Shown: positions 20,998 through 28,688 of the stretch, piece after piece
How positions within the stretch are numbered: position 1 is the first letter of the stretch
Layout: the number at the start of each line of letters is the position of its first letter
Assembly: GCF_008801695.1 (NCBI RefSeq)
Contig: NZ_VZPF01000011.1
Coordinates: 1-64,000, forward strand
Source of the DNA: Pantoea stewartii subsp. stewartii
GTDB lineage: Bacteria; Pseudomonadota; Gammaproteobacteria; Enterobacterales; Enterobacteriaceae
Length of the DNA: 64,000 nt
Reading direction: 5' to 3'
Made by a program: the position numbers and the translations under genes
Notes under the pieces: generated by a model
Seen by the model: the letters and a program-made list of their open reading frames with translations, nothing else
Databases searched by the model: none
What the model was told of the DNA's origin: nothing

Positions 20998-22134
20998 TTA
21001 AAAACCCCCGATTTTCAGGGTGGCCGCCACATTGCGTGCAGTAAGCCGCACATTGTTGCGTGCGCCATCCAGCGCTTCATCCAGCGAACAGATACGGTAT
21101 AGCACGCTGAATACCGCATCAATGCCATGTTGATGAACGACGCCGACATCGTCCGTCAGGCTACCGGCAATGCCAATCACCGGAAGACCAAACCGCTTTG
21201 CAACTTTCGCGACGCCAATCGGCACTTTGCCATTGATACTCTGACTGTCTATGCGCCCTTCGCCCGTAATCACCAGTTGGGCGTCCTGCAACTGCGCCGC
21301 CAGCCCCAGCGCTTCTGTAACGATTTCAATACCGGGGCGCAGGGCCGCCTGGCAAAATGCATACAGTGCGGCCCCCATTCCCCCTGCGGCACCGCCACCG
21401 CTGACCTGCAGGACATCCATGCCCAGATCGCGCTGAATCATCGCAGCATAGTGCGTCAGCGCCTTATCGAGCAGTGCCACCCGTTCAGGTGTTGCGCCCT
21501 TTTGCGGGCCAAAGACCGCCGACGCACCGTCATCGCCTGTCAGCGTATTGGTCACATCACAGGCCACTTCGAAACGGCACGCCCGGATACGGCTGTCCAG
21601 GCGGGAAATATCAATGCGGGCCAGATGCGGCAGCGCGCCGCCGCCAGGGCCAATCTCTTCACCTTGCTTATCCAGCAAACGCGCCCCCAGCGCCTGCATC
21701 ATTCCTGCGCCGCCGTCATTGGTGGCGCTGCCACCAATGCCAATAATGATGTGCTTTACCCCTTTATCCAGCGCGTTTTTGATCAGTTCACCTGTGCCAA
21801 ACGAAGTGGTAATCAATGGGTCGCGCCGCGCCGCCGGGACCAGCTCCAGGCCACTGGCGGCGGCCATCTCGATATAGGCGGTCTCGTCGTTGCCCGACAC
21901 CCCATAGAACGCCTCCACAGGTTCCCCCAGTGGACCGGTCACCTGTAACCTGATCTTTTTTCCCTGGGTTGCAGCGACCATCGCTTCAACCGTGCCTTCA
22001 CCGCCATCAGCGACCGGTATTTTCACATAATGCGCATCGGGGAAAATCTCGCGAAATCCCGCTTCGATTGCCGACGCCACATCCAGGGCAGAGAGACTTT
22101 CTTTATATGAATCCGGTGCGATGACGATTTTCAT
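20998..22134 (-). CDS. garK: Glycerate 2-kinase (GarK/GlxK family)
   Basis: Phosphorylates D-glycerate, the last step of the glucarate/galactarate pathway here. From ATG 22134 the protein has 378 residues (E. coli GarK 381) and begins MKIVIAPDSYKESLSA, the conserved N-terminus. An in-frame ATG at 22176 adds 14 non-conserved residues. Family features are VADGGEGTVEAMVAAT, IIGIGGSATNDGGAGMMQALG, GGGAAGGMGAAL and LVITGEGRIDSQSINGK. It is the last gene of gudP-gudD-garL-garR-garK, 73 bases after garR. The 381-type GarK and GlxK cannot be separated safely by eye, but context favours GarK. Confidence 0.93.
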   Translation of the reverse strand: MKIVIAPDSYKESLSALDVASAIEAGFREIFPDAHYVKIPVADGGEGTVEAMVAATQGKKIRLQVTGPLGEPVEAFYGVSGNDETAYIEMAAASGLELVPAARRDPLITTSFGTGELIKNALDKGVKHIIIGIGGSATNDGGAGMMQALGARLLDKQGEEIGPGGGALPHLARIDISRLDSRIRACRFEVACDVTNTLTGDDGASAVFGPQKGATPERVALLDKALTHYAAMIQRDLGMDVLQVSGGGAAGGMGAALYAFCQAALRPGIEIVTEALGLAAQLQDAQLVITGEGRIDSQSINGKVPIGVAKVAKRFGLPVIGIAGSLTDDVGVVHQHGIDAVFSVLYRICSLDEALDGARNNVRLTARNVAATLKIGGF

Positions 22135-22207
22135 AAGCAATCCAGACGGTATGGTTTGACGATAAGGGAAGGACATTCGCCCGGCATCCCCAGATACCGG
22201 GCAACGC

Positions 22208-23092
22208 TTAGCGCGAAATTTCGACGTTTGCTAACTTTTCATAATAGCAGGCCAGCGCGCTGTGGTCGGCGGTTCCCTGTCCGTCGTTACGCAGTGCCTG
22301 CATCATCTCCATCACCGCCGCTGTCAGTGGGAGAGGAGCACCAATGTCATGTGAGGTATCCAGTGCGTTAGCCAGATCTTTAATATGTAAATCGATACGA
22401 AAGCCGGGTTTAAAATTGCGGTCCATCACCATCGGCGCTTTCGCATCCAGCACGGTGCTTCCTGCCAGACCGCCACGTATAGCCTGATAGACCAGCTCCG
22501 GATTGACACCGGCTTTGGTCGCCAGTGACAGCGCTTCTGACATCGCGGCAATATTCAGCGCCACAATCACCTGATTGGCCAGCTTGGTCACGTTACCGGC
22601 ACCGATATCGCCGGTATGCACGACCGAGCCCGCCATGGCTTTCATGATGTCGTAACACTGGTCAAACACGGCTTTATCGCCGCCCACCATCACCGACAAC
22701 GTGCCTTCGATGGCTTTGGGTTCGCCGCCACTGACCGGCGCATCCAGCATACGGATCTGTTTTGCCGCCAGCGCATCATGGATTTCCCGGCTTGCCAGTG
22801 GGGCGATTGAGCTCATGTCGATGACAATCAGACCGGGTTTTGCCCCATTGATAATGCCATTTTCACCCAGACAAACCTCTTTGACCTGCGGCGAGTTCGG
22901 CACCATGGTGATGACCACATCGCACTGCCCGGCAATCTCTTTCGCGTTGCTGGCCGTTGTCGCACCCAGCGCGACCAGCTCGGCCTCGTTTTCGGCATGA
23001 TGATCCCGCACGACAAGTGAATAACCCGCCTTCAGCAGGTTTTTACTCATAAGTTTGCCCATAATCCCAAGGCCAATAAAGCCAATTTTCAT
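22208..23092 (-). CDS. garR: Tartronate semialdehyde reductase
   Basis: NAD(P)H-dependent 2-hydroxy-3-oxopropionate reductase making D-glycerate. The 294-residue protein is a beta-hydroxyacid dehydrogenase. It has Rossmann GFIGLGIMGKLMSKNL at the N-terminus, the substrate motif DAPVSGGEPKAIEGTLSVMV near 117, and the catalytic lysine in GNVTKLANQVIVALN near 170. It starts 18 bases after the garL stop, with GGAG-type spacing, in the minus-strand sugar-diacid operon. Confidence 0.96.
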   Translation of the reverse strand: MKIGFIGLGIMGKLMSKNLLKAGYSLVVRDHHAENEAELVALGATTASNAKEIAGQCDVVITMVPNSPQVKEVCLGENGIINGAKPGLIVIDMSSIAPLASREIHDALAAKQIRMLDAPVSGGEPKAIEGTLSVMVGGDKAVFDQCYDIMKAMAGSVVHTGDIGAGNVTKLANQVIVALNIAAMSEALSLATKAGVNPELVYQAIRGGLAGSTVLDAKAPMVMDRNFKPGFRIDLHIKDLANALDTSHDIGAPLPLTAAVMEMMQALRNDGQGTADHSALACYYEKLANVEISR

Positions 23093-23110: not shown

Positions 23111-23881
23111 TTACGTTTTAAATTTGTCACACAACGCCTGCGTGGCACTGCGGAAAACACCGAGATCGCTACCCACAGCAACAAAGGTCGCGCCCCACTC
23201 GAGGTAGCGGCGGGCGTCGGCCTCGACCGGCGCCAGAATCCCGCTGGGTTTGTTGGCAGCTTTTGCCCGTTCAAAGATGTGTTTGATGACGGGCAATACC
23301 GCCGGGTGCGCAGGCTGGCCGAGATAACCCAGCGCGGCGGACAGATCGCCCGGTCCGACAAAGATCCCGTCCACGCCCTCAACGGCCGCGATAGCATCGA
23401 TGTTGTCCACGGCCTGCTGCGTTTCTATCTGGACTAACACCGTAATGTTGTCGTTGATAGTGCTGTTGTACGCTGGCATGGTGCCGTACATATTGCTGCG
23501 ATGTGAAACGGATACGCCGCGAATCCCCGCAGGCGGATAACGCGTCGAGGCGACCGCACGTCTGGCCTCGTCTTCGTTCTCGACGAAGGGCACCAGAATG
23601 TTGTTAAAACCAATATCCAGCAGGCGTTTAATAATCACCGGCTCGTTACAGGGTGGACGCACAACCGGCGCACTATCGCTGCCTTTCAGCGCCATCAGTT
23701 GAGGCACAAAGGTGGTGATATCGTTAGGCGCGTGCTCGCCGTCCAGCACCAGCCAGTCAAATCCGGCCAGCCCCAGGACTTCGGTCGAAAGGGGATTCGC
23801 CAGGGCACACCAACTGCCAATCAGGGTTTCACCTGCCAGCAGGCGATGGCGAAATTCATTGCGCCAGGCTGTATTACTCAT
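23111..23881 (-). CDS. garL: 5-keto-4-deoxy-D-glucarate aldolase
   Basis: Class II HpcH/HpaI aldolase that splits 5-keto-4-deoxyglucarate into pyruvate and tartronate semialdehyde. The 256 residues (E. coli 256) carry catalytic His50 in [10 protein letters not shown] and the Arg in VVRPPCNEP. Metal ligands are the Glu of [12 protein letters not shown] and the Asp of [13 protein letters not shown]. It lies 46 bases after gudD and 18 bases before garR. In E. coli garL is in garPLRK at a different chromosomal site; here it is fused into the gud transcription unit. Confidence 0.96.
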
Positions 23882-23927
23882 GGTTTTACTCCTGTGAAAC
23901 GGGTTTCCTGCAGGAAGCCCAAAAACG

Positions 23928-25265
23928 TTAACGCACCAGGCACGGACGCTTGTGATCGAACGTCCACTGCGGAATCAGAAACTGCATGGCCTGTGCATCA
24001 TCACGGGCACCCAGGCCATGCTTTTGATAAAGCGCATTAGCCTGCATCACCCGCTCCCTGTCCAGCTCAATACCCAGGCCCGGCTTCTGCGGCACTGCCA
24101 CCCTGCCACCTTCAATCTGGAAAGGCGCTTTTGTGAGCCGTTGATTGCCCTCCTGCCAGATCCAGTGCGTATCAATGGCGGTGATGTTGCCCGGTGCGGC
24201 GGCCGCAACGTGCGTGAACATCGCCAAGGAAATATCGAAATGGTTGTTGGAATGGGAACCCCACGTCAGGCCAAATTCATGGCACATTTGCGCCACGCGC
24301 ACGGATCCCTGCATCGTCCAGAAGTGCGGATCGGCCAGCGGGATATCGACTGACTGTAAAGACAAGGTGTGTCCCATCTGACGCCAGTCTGTAGCAATCA
24401 TATTGGTGGCGACCGGCAGGCCCGTCGCGCGCCGAAACTCCACCATCACCTCACGCCCGGAATAACCCTGCTCCGCCCCACAGGGATCTTCTGCATAGGT
24501 CAGCACATCCTGCATGCCTTTGCACAGCCGGATCGCCTCGTCCAGCCGCCATGCGCCGTTAGGATCAACGGTGATACGCGCATCGGGAAAGCGTTTTTTC
24601 AACGCCTGCGCGGTCGCGATTTCCTGTTCGCCCGGCAGCACACCGCCCTTGAGTTTAAAATCGTGAAATCCGTATTTATCCTGAGCCGCTTCCGCCAGCC
24701 TGACGATGGCCTCACTGCTCAGGGCTTCCTGATGACGCAGCCGATACCAGTCATGCTGCGCGTTCTCACCAGTGAGGTAAGGCAGATCGGTTTTGCACCG
24801 GTCGCCGATATAGAACAGGTAACCCAAAACCGTGACCGCATCGCGTTGTTTACCCGGCCCCAGCAGCTCGGCGACCGGCACGCCCAGACATTGCCCCAGC
24901 AGATCCAGCAGCGCGGCCTCCAGCGCCGCAACCGCATTTACGCGCAGTTCAAACGTCCAGGCGCCCTTGCCAAAGGTCTCGAAATCCGCAGACTGATTGC
25001 CCCGATGCACCTGCTGTACCAGCCGGTTCAGGCAGGCGACCTGCTGACCTGTCACCTGCTGTACGGCATCCAGCAAGGTCTGATAAATGGTCTCGCCTCC
25101 CGGTGCCTCACCCAGCCCGGTATGATCCGCACTGTCCGTCAGTATCACAATGTTGCGGGTAAAACTGGCATTGTGTGCCCCCCCAATGTTGAGCAGCATA
25201 CTGTCGTAACCGGCCACCGGCACAACCTGCATAGCGGTGATAACGGGCGTGGATTGCGTATTCAT
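23928..25265 (-). CDS. gudD: Glucarate dehydratase, apparent GudX/GudD mosaic
   Basis: Enolase-superfamily dehydratase converting D-glucarate to 5-keto-4-deoxyglucarate. The 445-residue protein (E. coli GudD 446) keeps the acid-sugar catalytic set: KxK in FKLKGGV (Lys204/206), metal ligands Asp234 (TVDPNGAW), Glu259 (YAEDPCGAE), Asn288 (ATNMIAT), and His338 (GSHSNNH). Compared from memory with the two E. coli paralogues, residues 1 to about 290 resemble GudX ([45 protein letters not shown]). Residues from about 293 to the end resemble GudD ([30 protein letters not shown]). Only one such gene is present, nine bases after gudP, where E. coli has gudX then gudD. Function as a dehydratase is likely. 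Confidence 0.93.
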
Positions 25266-25274
25266 ACAGGCTCC

Positions 25275-26618
25275 TTAGCGGGTTTTCAGCTCAATGCGCT
25301 TGATGTTATCCACCAGCACCAGATAACTGAGTACCGCGACAAAGGCGTGGATACCCACGTATACCAGCGCACCGTTATACGATCCGGTCGAGGCAATGAT
25401 GTAGCCAATCGCGACAGGCGTGATAATGCCGGACGCATTACCAAACATATTGAACAGGCCGCCGCTCAGACCGCTGATCTCCTTCGGCGCGGTATCGGCC
25501 ATCACCGCCCAGCCCAACGCACCAATGCCTTTGCCAAAAAAGGCCGTCGCCATAAACAGCACCACAACCCAGTCGGTTTCAACGTAGTTACATATCACCA
25601 TAGAGGTCGAGAGCAGCATCCCGAGCACAATGGGCGTTTTGCGGGCGATGTTCAGGGAACCGGTTTTGCGCATCAGCCAGTCAGAGATCACGCCACCCAG
25701 CACGCCGCCAATAAAGCCGCACAGTGCCGGTACGGAGGCAACAAAACCGGCTTTAAGAATCGACATTCCGCGCGCCTGAACCAGATAAACCGGAAACCAG
25801 GTGATAAAGAAATAGGTCAGTGCGTTGATGCAGTACTGGCCAATATAGATACCGATCATCATGCGTGACTGCAGCAGCTGTTTGATCTGGAACCGCTTGT
25901 CACGAAAGCTGACGTTTTGCTTTTCGCTTTTCTGATCCATGTTGATTAGCGCACCGCCCTGCTCCATGTATTCCCGTTCCGCCTGATTAACGCCAGGATG
26001 ATCGCTGGGATCGTGAATCACTTTGAGCCAGATAAGGCTCAGGATGATGCCCAGTCCCCCCATGAACCAGAAGACATGAGCCCAACCGACTGCGGAGGTC
26101 AGCCAGCCCATGATGGGTGCGAAAATCACGGTCGCAAAATACTGGGCAGAATTGAAAATGGCCACGGCGGTACCGCGCTCCTGAGCCGGGAACCAGGCGG
26201 CCACAATCCGGCTGTTACCCGGAAATGAAGGTGCTTCTGCCAGGCCCACCATAAAGCGCAACATAAACAGCGCCATCACGATGGTGTAACCGCTGAACAG
26301 GTCCACGAAACCTTGCAGCAAGGTAAATAACGACCAGAGGAAGATGCTCCAGAAATAGACGCGTTTGGAACCAAAGCGATCCAACAGCCAGCCGCCGGGG
26401 ATTTGTCCAATAACATAGGCCCACGAAAACGCCGAGAAGATGTAACCCATGCCCACGGGATCGAGGCCAATATCCTTTGCCATCGCGGAGCCAGCGATGG
26501 ATAACGTCGTCCGGTCGCCGTAGTTGAATGAGGTCACAATAAACAACATGACCACAATCCAGTAGCGTGCATTTGTCCGTTTCTGGACCGCCTCTGACGT
26601 CTGGTGAAAACTACTCAT
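25275..26618 (-). CDS. gudP: Glucarate/galactarate transporter (MFS, ACS family)
   Basis: Twelve-helix inner-membrane proton symporter for sugar diacids. From ATG 26618 the protein has 447 residues (E. coli GudP 450); CAGGAG precedes this start by six bases. An upstream in-frame ATG at 26705 adds 29 residues with no family similarity. Signatures are FNYGDRTTLSIAG in the first helix region, WLLDRFGSKRVYFWS, RFMVGLAEAPSFPGNSRI, and ALTYFFITWFPVYLVQ in the second half. It is the first gene of the operon gudP-gudD-garL-garR-garK. No separate garP is present, so GudP probably imports both substrates. Confidence 0.96.
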   Translation of the reverse strand: MSSFHQTSEAVQKRTNARYWIVVMLFIVTSFNYGDRTTLSIAGSAMAKDIGLDPVGMGYIFSAFSWAYVIGQIPGGWLLDRFGSKRVYFWSIFLWSLFTLLQGFVDLFSGYTIVMALFMLRFMVGLAEAPSFPGNSRIVAAWFPAQERGTAVAIFNSAQYFATVIFAPIMGWLTSAVGWAHVFWFMGGLGIILSLIWLKVIHDPSDHPGVNQAEREYMEQGGALINMDQKSEKQNVSFRDKRFQIKQLLQSRMMIGIYIGQYCINALTYFFITWFPVYLVQARGMSILKAGFVASVPALCGFIGGVLGGVISDWLMRKTGSLNIARKTPIVLGMLLSTSMVICNYVETDWVVVLFMATAFFGKGIGALGWAVMADTAPKEISGLSGGLFNMFGNASGIITPVAIGYIIASTGSYNGALVYVGIHAFVAVLSYLVLVDNIKRIELKTR

Positions 26619-26933
26619 GATGCACTCCTGAAAAATAGCGAAAGTGACATTCGCTCTGACTGCATACACATCGCGTTGGGTATCAGAGAGATGTAGGTTA
26701 AACACGGCGATTTTTTTATTGGCAAATTACTCACGCGGCGTGACATATAACCTGACCGGGGAAACGGAAATCAGTATAAGAAGTGGGTTTCACGGTGACA
26801 TTGGAATATCTCCCTGGAATAAGGAGAAGGAATCGTGCTTTTTTGGGCTATTGCATAAAACACTGCGGCGCATTTCACGTATTTTGGTATTCCTCACCCA
26901 AAGCCAGCTCCTAAGCCCGACGATCGCCGGCTT

Positions 26934-27128: not shown

Positions 27129-28688
27129 ATGATCCCCCTGTCAAACGAACAACCGCTCTATATCAAAGTTCATGAAAACGATAACGTGGCCATTGTGGTT
27201 AACAGCCAGGGACTGCCTGCCGGTACCACGTTTCGTGATGGCTTAACTCTGACCGAGCATATCCCCCAGGGACACAAGGTGGCGCTGCAGGCTATTCCTG
27301 GTGGGCAGCCCATACTGCGCTATGGCGAGGTGATTGGTCTGGCCATGCGTGATATCGCCCAGGGGAGCTGGATCGACGAATCGCTAATTGCTCTGCCGGA
27401 CGCCCCGGACTTAGCGCATTTATCTTTAGCGAATAATGTGCCGCCGGCGTTACCGCCGCTGGACGGTTATACCTTTGAGGGCTATCGCAACGCCGACGGC
27501 AGCGTGGGCACCCGTAATCTGTTGGGGATCACCACCAGCGTGCACTGCGTCGCGGGCGTGGTGGATTATGTGGTGCAAATCATTGAGCGTGATTTACTGC
27601 CCCGCTATCCCAACGTTGATGGCGTGGTGGCGCTGAATCATCTTTATGGCTGTGGCGTGGCGATCAATGCCCCCGCGGCGGTGATCCCGATCCGAACCGT
27701 TCATAATCTGGCCCTGAATGCCAATTTCGGCGGCGAAATCATGGTGGTCAGTCTGGGATGCGAAAAGTTACAACCCGAACGCCTGCTGACCGGCACGCCT
27801 GACGTACAGCCCATCTCGCTGGACGATGCGGATATTGTGCGTTTGCAGGACGAGAGCCGGGTGGGCTTCGGTGCCATGGTGGATGACATTTTGCAGGTCG
27901 CAGAGCGCCACCTGAGCCGCCTTAATCAACGCCAGCGCGAAACCTGCCCGGCCTCTGAACTGGTGGTGGGCATGCAGTGTGGCGGCAGCGACGCGTTTTC
28001 GGGCGTGACCGCGAATCCCGCCGTCGGCTTCGCCGCTGATCTGCTGGTACGCTGCGGAGCCACCGTAATGTTTTCTGAAGTCACGGAGGTACGGGATGCC
28101 ATTCATTTGCTGACGCCACGCGTGGTTGACCAGGCCGTGGGCCAGCGACTGATTGAGGAAATGGCCTGGTATGATCGCTATCTCGATCAAGGCAAAACGG
28201 ACCGCAGCGCCAATCCCTCGCCCGGCAACAAGAAAGGCGGACTGGCCAACGTGGTGGAAAAAGCATTAGGCTCAATTGCCAAATCAGGCCGAAGCCCGAT
28301 TGTGGAAGTGCTGTCGCCGGGACAACGGCCAACACGACGAGGGCTGATTTTTGCCGCCACGCCCGCCAGCGATTTTGTCTGCGGCACGCAGCAGCTGGCC
28401 TCAGGCATCACCTTACAGGTTTTTACAACAGGCAGGGGAACGCCTTACGGCCTGCCGGCGATTCCGGTGATTAAGATGGCGACCCGTACCGCATTGGCTG
28501 AACGCTGGCATGATTTAATGGATATTAACGCCGGTACGATTGCCACGGGCGAAGAAACCATCGAGCAGGTTGGCTGGCGGTTGTTTACATTAATTCTGGA
28601 CATTGCCAGCGGCCGGAAACAAACCTGGTCAGACCGCTGGGGCATCCGCAATCAGCTGGCGGTCTTTAATCCCGCACCGATCACCTGA
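27129..28688 (+). CDS. garD: Galactarate dehydratase
   Basis: Iron-dependent UxaA-family dehydratase converting galactarate to 5-keto-4-deoxyglucarate. The 519-residue protein (E. coli 523) has the N-terminal SAF-like domain (about 10-95). The catalytic domain follows with [60 protein letters not shown] and [18 protein letters not shown]. The conserved Cys residues (GCGV, GCEK, CGGS) fit the metal site of the family. It is transcribed alone, divergent from gudP, and ends before a strong hairpin shared with yqcA. Confidence 0.97.

Follow-up and report, generated by a model that had tools for sequence, protein, structure and literature searches.

A mosaic of gudX and gudD as the only glucarate dehydratase homologue found in a Pantoea stewartii genome, probably formed by deletion between tandem paralogues

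Introduction

Enterobacterial genomes can carry two adjacent glucarate dehydratase paralogues behind the transporter gene gudP, as in E. coli (C8), where the order is gudP-gudX-gudD-barA. The operon of Pantoea stewartii subsp. stewartii has a single gene in this place, which raises the question of what that gene is and what became of the other. A first-pass annotation of the window, the 64,000-nucleotide stretch of DNA analysed here, pointed correctly to the E. coli tandem and proposed that the one gene following gudP is GudX in its N-terminal two thirds and GudD in the remainder. The single gene is indeed present, as an open reading frame at 23928-25265 that begins 9 nt after the gudP stop codon, and a search of the genome returned no other homologue of glucarate dehydratase. 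The features of the locus are as follows.

20998..22176, minus strand: garK-type glycerate kinase
22208..23092, minus strand: garR, 2-hydroxy-3-oxopropionate (tartronate semialdehyde) reductase
23111..23881, minus strand: garL, 2-dehydro-3-deoxyglucarate aldolase
23882..23927, minus strand: spacer to garL, 46 nt, matching the gudD-garL spacer of relatives G005 and G003
23928..25265, minus strand: gudX::gudD mosaic, 445 amino acids, frame intact
23928..24389, minus strand: GudD-derived part, residues 293-445 and the stop codon, C-terminus CLVR
24390..24434, minus strand: breakpoint interval, residues 286-292 (24390-24410) by amino acids, possibly slightly upstream by synonymous sites
24411..25265, minus strand: GudX-derived part, residues 1-285
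25266..25274, minus strand: spacer from gudP to the mosaic, 9 nt, matching the gudP-gudX spacer of G005 and G003
25275..26705, minus strand: gudP, transporter, listed frame from GTG
27129..28688, plus strand: garD, galactarate dehydratase, divergent from the operon

The operon thus reads gudP, mosaic, garL, garR and garK, with garD facing away from it, and the frames of gudP, garL, garR, garK and garD are all open and full-length. An E. coli-like start for gudP lies about 29 codons inside the listed frame, near 26618. The garK-type protein scores above the general glycerate kinase cut-off and below the cut-offs of the 2-kinase and 3-kinase models. The genomes G005 and G003, which are the nearest relatives by this gene, have the same operon with gudX and gudD in tandem.

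Two paralogues in one reading frame

The GudX-GudD mosaic is real. When compared with same-genus loci (L086-L114, 29 GudX and 27 GudD rows), residues 1-285 show 87-91% identity with GudX and 61-64% with GudD. For residues 295-445 the values are 86-94% with GudD and 68-72% with GudX. Identity by halves, a comparison that the first-pass annotation had proposed, therefore assigns the two halves to different paralogues. There are 73 amino-acid columns that are diagnostic for GudX versus GudD. Among the 47 of these that fall in residues 1-285, 43 are GudX-type, 1 is GudD-type and 3 are neither; the 26 in residues 293-445 comprise 22 GudD-type, 1 GudX-type and 3 other. The same division is seen in the DNA at 307 diagnostic sites, which were defined as those at which the two paralogues differ and each of them is the same in G005 and G003. 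Up to nt 854 these sites are GudX-type, GudD-type and other in the numbers 173, 14 and 14, and past nt 854 in the numbers 8, 93 and 5 (Fisher p 6e-50). The observed maximum chi-square for this switch was reached in none of 2000 permutations. Both kinds of diagnostic site bear out the division into two thirds GudX and one third GudD that had been seen by eye.

There is one switch point between the paralogue-specific sequences, as looked for in a deletion fusion. The switch falls between V285, the last diagnostic residue of GudX type, and D293, the first of GudD type, and so within residues 286-292 (24390-24410). The first-pass estimate of residues 289-293, near 24390-24400, was right to within a few residues. 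When synonymous sites are counted as well, a breakpoint slightly upstream, down to nt 832 (24434), fits equally well.

Phylogeny of the two halves

Trees of each half were built from 43 rows, and the grouping of each half with the paralogues of G005 and G003 was examined together with approximately unbiased (AU) tests. An earlier and broader set had 66 rows, hand-picked from the 179 identity rows and from additional sequences. In the 43-row trees the N-terminal half joins the GudX sequences of G005 and G003 with support of 100/100 in DNA and 100/98 in protein, and its grouping with the GudD sequences of these genomes is rejected (p-AU 1e-4 in DNA, 0.046 in protein). The broader test also rejected its grouping with the whole GudD clade (p 0.0008). 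The C-terminal half joins the GudD sequences of G005 and G003 in the protein tree with support of 100/96, and its grouping with their GudX sequences is rejected (p-AU 2e-57 in DNA, 1e-9 in protein). The C-half DNA tree does not recover the G005/G003 GudD clade exactly; enforcing the grouping costs 2.14 log units and is not rejected (p-AU 0.307). Nor did the broader test reject a grouping of the C half with the GudX clade as a whole (p-AU 0.14).

In trees without an outgroup, a query on the branch between GudX and GudD fits either grouping. The C-half DNA tree of this design satisfies both groupings, and the N-half DNA tree rejects the GudD grouping only at p 0.038. Taken over its whole length the gene groups neither with GudX, which only its N half joins, nor with GudD, which only its C half joins. 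Both halves belong to the G005/G003 species group, in different paralogue clades, and the outcome in which the two fall into one clade did not occur. The mosaic is a GlucD-type protein of the enolase superfamily that by tree is neither fully GudX nor fully GudD.

Flanking spacers and the missing DNA

The non-coding DNA on either side divides in the same way as the gene. In comparison with G005 and G003, the upstream spacer is that of gudX and the downstream spacer is that of gudD, and about 1.35 kb is absent relative to the tandem arrangement, a size taken from the relatives. No leftover of the GudX C-terminal part or the GudD N-terminal part was found elsewhere in the genome's own assembly of 352 contigs, from which short pieces could have dropped out. 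The locus therefore has the composition of a deletion fusion, with the upstream flank of the first gene, the downstream flank of the second and the intervening DNA absent from the assembly, in a group whose close members G005 and G003 keep the tandem genes.

The simplest history is one in-register deletion, some 1.35 kb long. On this reading, which the sequence and the trees bear out, it joined gudX codon ~285 to gudD codon ~293, removing the 3' third of gudX, the spacer and the 5' two thirds of gudD, and took place in this lineage after its split from the two nearest sampled relatives. It may have come about by recombination or by replication slippage between the two similar genes. The first-pass annotation had attributed the mosaic to homologous recombination between the tandem paralogues. 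The spacers and the missing DNA support a deletion between them, to which a RecA-type crossover is one possible route. At the breakpoint the exact runs common to the relatives' paralogues are only about 9-11 nt (in G005 and G003, from which the actual parents may differ), so short-homology slippage or recombination is as likely as a RecA-type event. The longest exact runs between the paralogues lie away from the breakpoint and measure 36 nt in G005 and 17 nt in G003. Synonymous divergence from G005 and G003 is 0.57-0.87 for the two halves and 0.69-1.12 for gudP, garL, garR and garD, a similarity that is as expected for vertical descent.

Fusions and losses in related genomes

The genus is Pantoea, as one of its genomes, G023, is 100% identical over 4329 bases to Pantoea endophytica locus L004. 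Of its 61 genomes 57 match, and by row count 55 of these have two adjacent matches, one of which is damaged in some genomes. The two exceptions are the window genome and G030, and the exact fusion of the mosaic was seen in one genome only, the 352-contig assembly. G030 (L154, C8), a reduced genome of 2.9 Mb, has residues 1-148 of gudX joined out of frame to gudD at about residue 213. Its gud/gar locus is degraded, with garR unmatched and gudP, garL, garK and garD matched only in pieces. Four other members of the genus (G021, L152; G033, L153; G025, L155; G036, L156) have single-base indels in gudD beside a full-length gudX, with one indel common to G021 and G033; GudX may suffice in these genomes, or the indels may be sequencing errors. 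Further damage was seen in G205 (L145), where a 79-codon gudX start stands beside a full-length paralogue, in G054 (L157), where a gudX with an internal gap does so, and in G063 (L191), which has a C-terminal remnant ahead of gudD.

A second fusion is found in the Erwinia-like genus g120, for which the nearest named loci are those of Erwinia. The 2-contig genome G281 (L144, C1:3906805-3908139) has a single gene that is GudX-type until the last diagnostic columns and ends in a GudD tail followed by a gudD-garL-type spacer. The same fusion, at 99% identity, is present in G380 (L167, C10:17963-19297), a different species of the genus. By row count 21 of 37 genomes in g120 match, of which 18 have GudX with an adjacent GudD, 1 has GudD only and 2 have the fusion. 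By itself the GudD-type tail does not prove a fusion, because L058, a more distant single GudX-like protein from a metagenome bin, is also GudD-type at the last two diagnostic columns. What supports the fusion reading is the tail in combination with the spacer and with the two separate genes seen in kin. As in the mosaic, a single gene occupies the position between gudP and garL, the product of a deletion between the same tandem paralogues. Unlike the mosaic, the breakpoint is at the extreme 3' end, with GudX running to about residue 438 before the GudD tail and spacer. Judged by these junctions, gudX-gudD fusion has arisen at least three times, with three breakpoints (the mosaic, G281/G380 and G030).

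Across the family at least 169 of 392 genomes match and at least 23 have a single match, with the best 4 or 5 candidates scored per genome. Diagnostic columns were inspected in 19 of the single-match genomes, the window gene included and G086, G164, G397 and G428 left out, and within these 19 the only fusions are those of the window genome (G000) and G281. In the same survey G205 and G063 proved to have the second-copy remnants described above, G127 has only pieces lying at the ends of contigs, and the protein of G254 is divergent, with a mixed diagnostic pattern. The tandem is well kept in E. coli, where at least 80% of the gudX-gudD stretch is present in 5353 of 5426 genomes and at least 80% of its middle in 5352. 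In each of these searches 19 matching genomes fall under 80%; one from each, 2452 (L207) and PSJ-12 (L208), proved to be non-fusion deletions of the gudX-gudD region.

Active site, fold and family scores

The GudX-derived part of the mosaic contributes what we take to be the capping or lid domain and the barrel as far as the KxK lysines 204 and 206, Asp234 and Glu259. The GudD-derived part carries Asp312, His338, Asn340 and Asp365, presumably the remainder of the catalytic set. This is the anatomy that the first-pass annotation had described, a GudX lid and KxK joined to a GudD His/Asn/Asp part, although the join changes none of the active-site positions checked. At all 20 positions of the E. 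coli GlucD active site that were checked, the mosaic has the same residue as both GudD and GudX of E. coli. Since the two E. coli proteins agree at all 20, the crossover alters none of them, and these positions cannot tell GudD from GudX. Any change in activity should stem from second-shell or subunit contacts.

The MR_MLE C-terminal domain PF13378 is found in the mosaic above cut-off (E 3.2e-50). An AlphaFold2 model has a mean pLDDT of 81.1 and a pTM of 0.87, with values below 50 at residues 1-3, 24-30 and 441-445, and places the junction between a strand (285-287) and a helix (294-303). Among solved structures the nearest match is a chain of 4GYP, whose title names a heterotetramer formed by GlucD and GlucDRP of E. 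coli. Together, the domain and a model closest to the GlucDRP and GlucD structures assign the protein to the enolase superfamily with a GlucD-type fold. With TIGR03247, the NCBIfam equivalog model for glucarate dehydratase, the mosaic scores 763.7 bits, below the cut-off of 828.7. The GudD proteins of G005, E. coli and G351 all pass at 880-899, while the GudX proteins of the same three genomes score 730-750 and the G281 fusion 752.

Each parent family accounts for part of what is seen. The mosaic resembles GudX (glucarate dehydratase-related protein, GlucDRP; E. coli, PDB 4IL0) in residues 1-285, in its start, in its position after gudP and in its upstream spacer, and departs from it from residue 293 to the stop codon and in having the downstream spacer of gudD. 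It resembles GudD (GlucD; E. coli, PDB 1EC7 and 1EC9) in residues 293-445, the CLVR C-terminus, the spacer to garL and the full catalytic set, and departs from it in its GudX-type first two thirds and in missing the TIGR03247 cut-off that the three tested GudD proteins pass. With the E. coli heterotetramer, going by the title of 4GYP, it shares parts of both subunits; unlike that complex it is one polypeptide, and any oligomer it forms would be a homo-oligomer.

The dN/dS of the two halves is low at 0.044-0.064, values that cannot be dated to the period after the fusion; for gudP, garL, garR and garD it is 0.021-0.048. In the C-terminal half the GudD proteins of G005 and G003 have no amino-acid-changing differences between them, and the mosaic does have such differences. 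It also exceeds every other row in private changes at otherwise invariant columns, with 7 of 228 and 5 of 135 in a comparison with 15 GudX and 15 GudD rows from the same genus. These changes could reflect adaptation or relaxed constraint.

Alternative explanations

Several other histories could in principle yield a gene of this kind. The assembly that contains the window is in 352 contigs and the exact fusion occurs in it alone, as might be seen if both gudX and gudD were present and had been falsely joined by the assembler. Such a misjoin is very improbable given that no leftover pieces were found and that the shared runs of ~9-11 nt are short for a k-mer join, with the 36-nt run of G005 lying elsewhere. 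The frame also stays open, and a similar fusion is found in the 2-contig genome and again in G380. We consider gene conversion hardly any more probable. Overwriting of the 3' third of gudX by gudD, with gudD lost separately later, would give the same product within the coding sequence. The DNA after the stop codon, however, is the gudD-garL spacer without any remnant of a second gene, so conversion needs two precise events where one deletion suffices. There is little to recommend horizontal transfer of the mosaic, or of its GudD part, from another Pantoea. The absence of a strict G005/G003 GudD grouping in the C-half DNA tree, at its small and non-significant cost, would fit such a transfer, but the protein tree makes that grouping, the synonymous distances of both halves and of the four neighbour genes are alike, and the upstream and downstream spacers both match G005 and G003. 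The least probable of all is an ancient pre-duplication lineage that retained residues common to each paralogue. No support for it was found, and we reject it because the halves nest in different paralogue clades, each next to G005 and G003.

A different doubt concerns the product and not the deletion. The deletion could be real and the protein an impaired step toward loss of the pathway. The private changes at conserved columns and a dN/dS somewhat above that of the neighbour genes would fit this, as would the gudD indels of four other genomes in the genus and the broken pathway of G030. The intact frame, the conservation of every checked active-site position, the still low dN/dS and the open, full-length frames of gudP, garL, garR, garK and garD all speak for a working enzyme. 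An impaired product is therefore unlikely in our view, though a good deal less so than any of the histories above. We have considerable confidence that an in-register deletion fused the tandem gudX and gudD into this gene, whose product is most likely still active and probably takes the place of a complex as a homo-oligomer.

Implications

Under the deletion reading, the product would be a full-length GlucD-type barrel. Because it keeps every checked catalytic residue, it most likely still converts D-glucarate, and perhaps L-idarate, to 5-keto-4-deoxyglucarate for GarL, GarR and GarK, and a function in the pathway is likely from its sequence. As the title of 4GYP describes E. coli GlucD and GlucDRP in a heterotetramer, one chain may replace what is elsewhere a two-gene complex, and a one-gene homo-oligomer would probably be the result. 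Going by the genes listed for a Dickeya solani transposon screen, gudP, gudD, gudX and garL are all fitness genes on galactarate (PMC10202176). With both gudD and gudX on that list, doing without two separate genes may have consequences, although polar effects of the transposon insertions in the operon could also account for the listing.

Deletion-mediated fusion of tandem paralogues is a known process. No report of a gudX-gudD fusion was found in the open-access literature, judged from the titles and abstract openings of the papers listed, and as far as this search shows what looks new is this chimera, the repeated occurrence of such fusions and the link to a heterotetramer. A bolder and rather tentative possibility is that natural crossover has, more than once, collapsed the GlucD-GlucDRP heterotetramer into a one-gene homo-oligomer, with both surface types on each subunit, that serves as the sole glucarate dehydratase with a specificity or stability unlike that of either parent. 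If true, evolution would here have run the usual path from duplication to heteromer in reverse. Natural chimeras of this kind could be used to test whether reversion from heteromer to homomer is possible, could show which part of GudX or GudD carries activity or assembly, and could address why enterobacteria keep GudX beside GudD.
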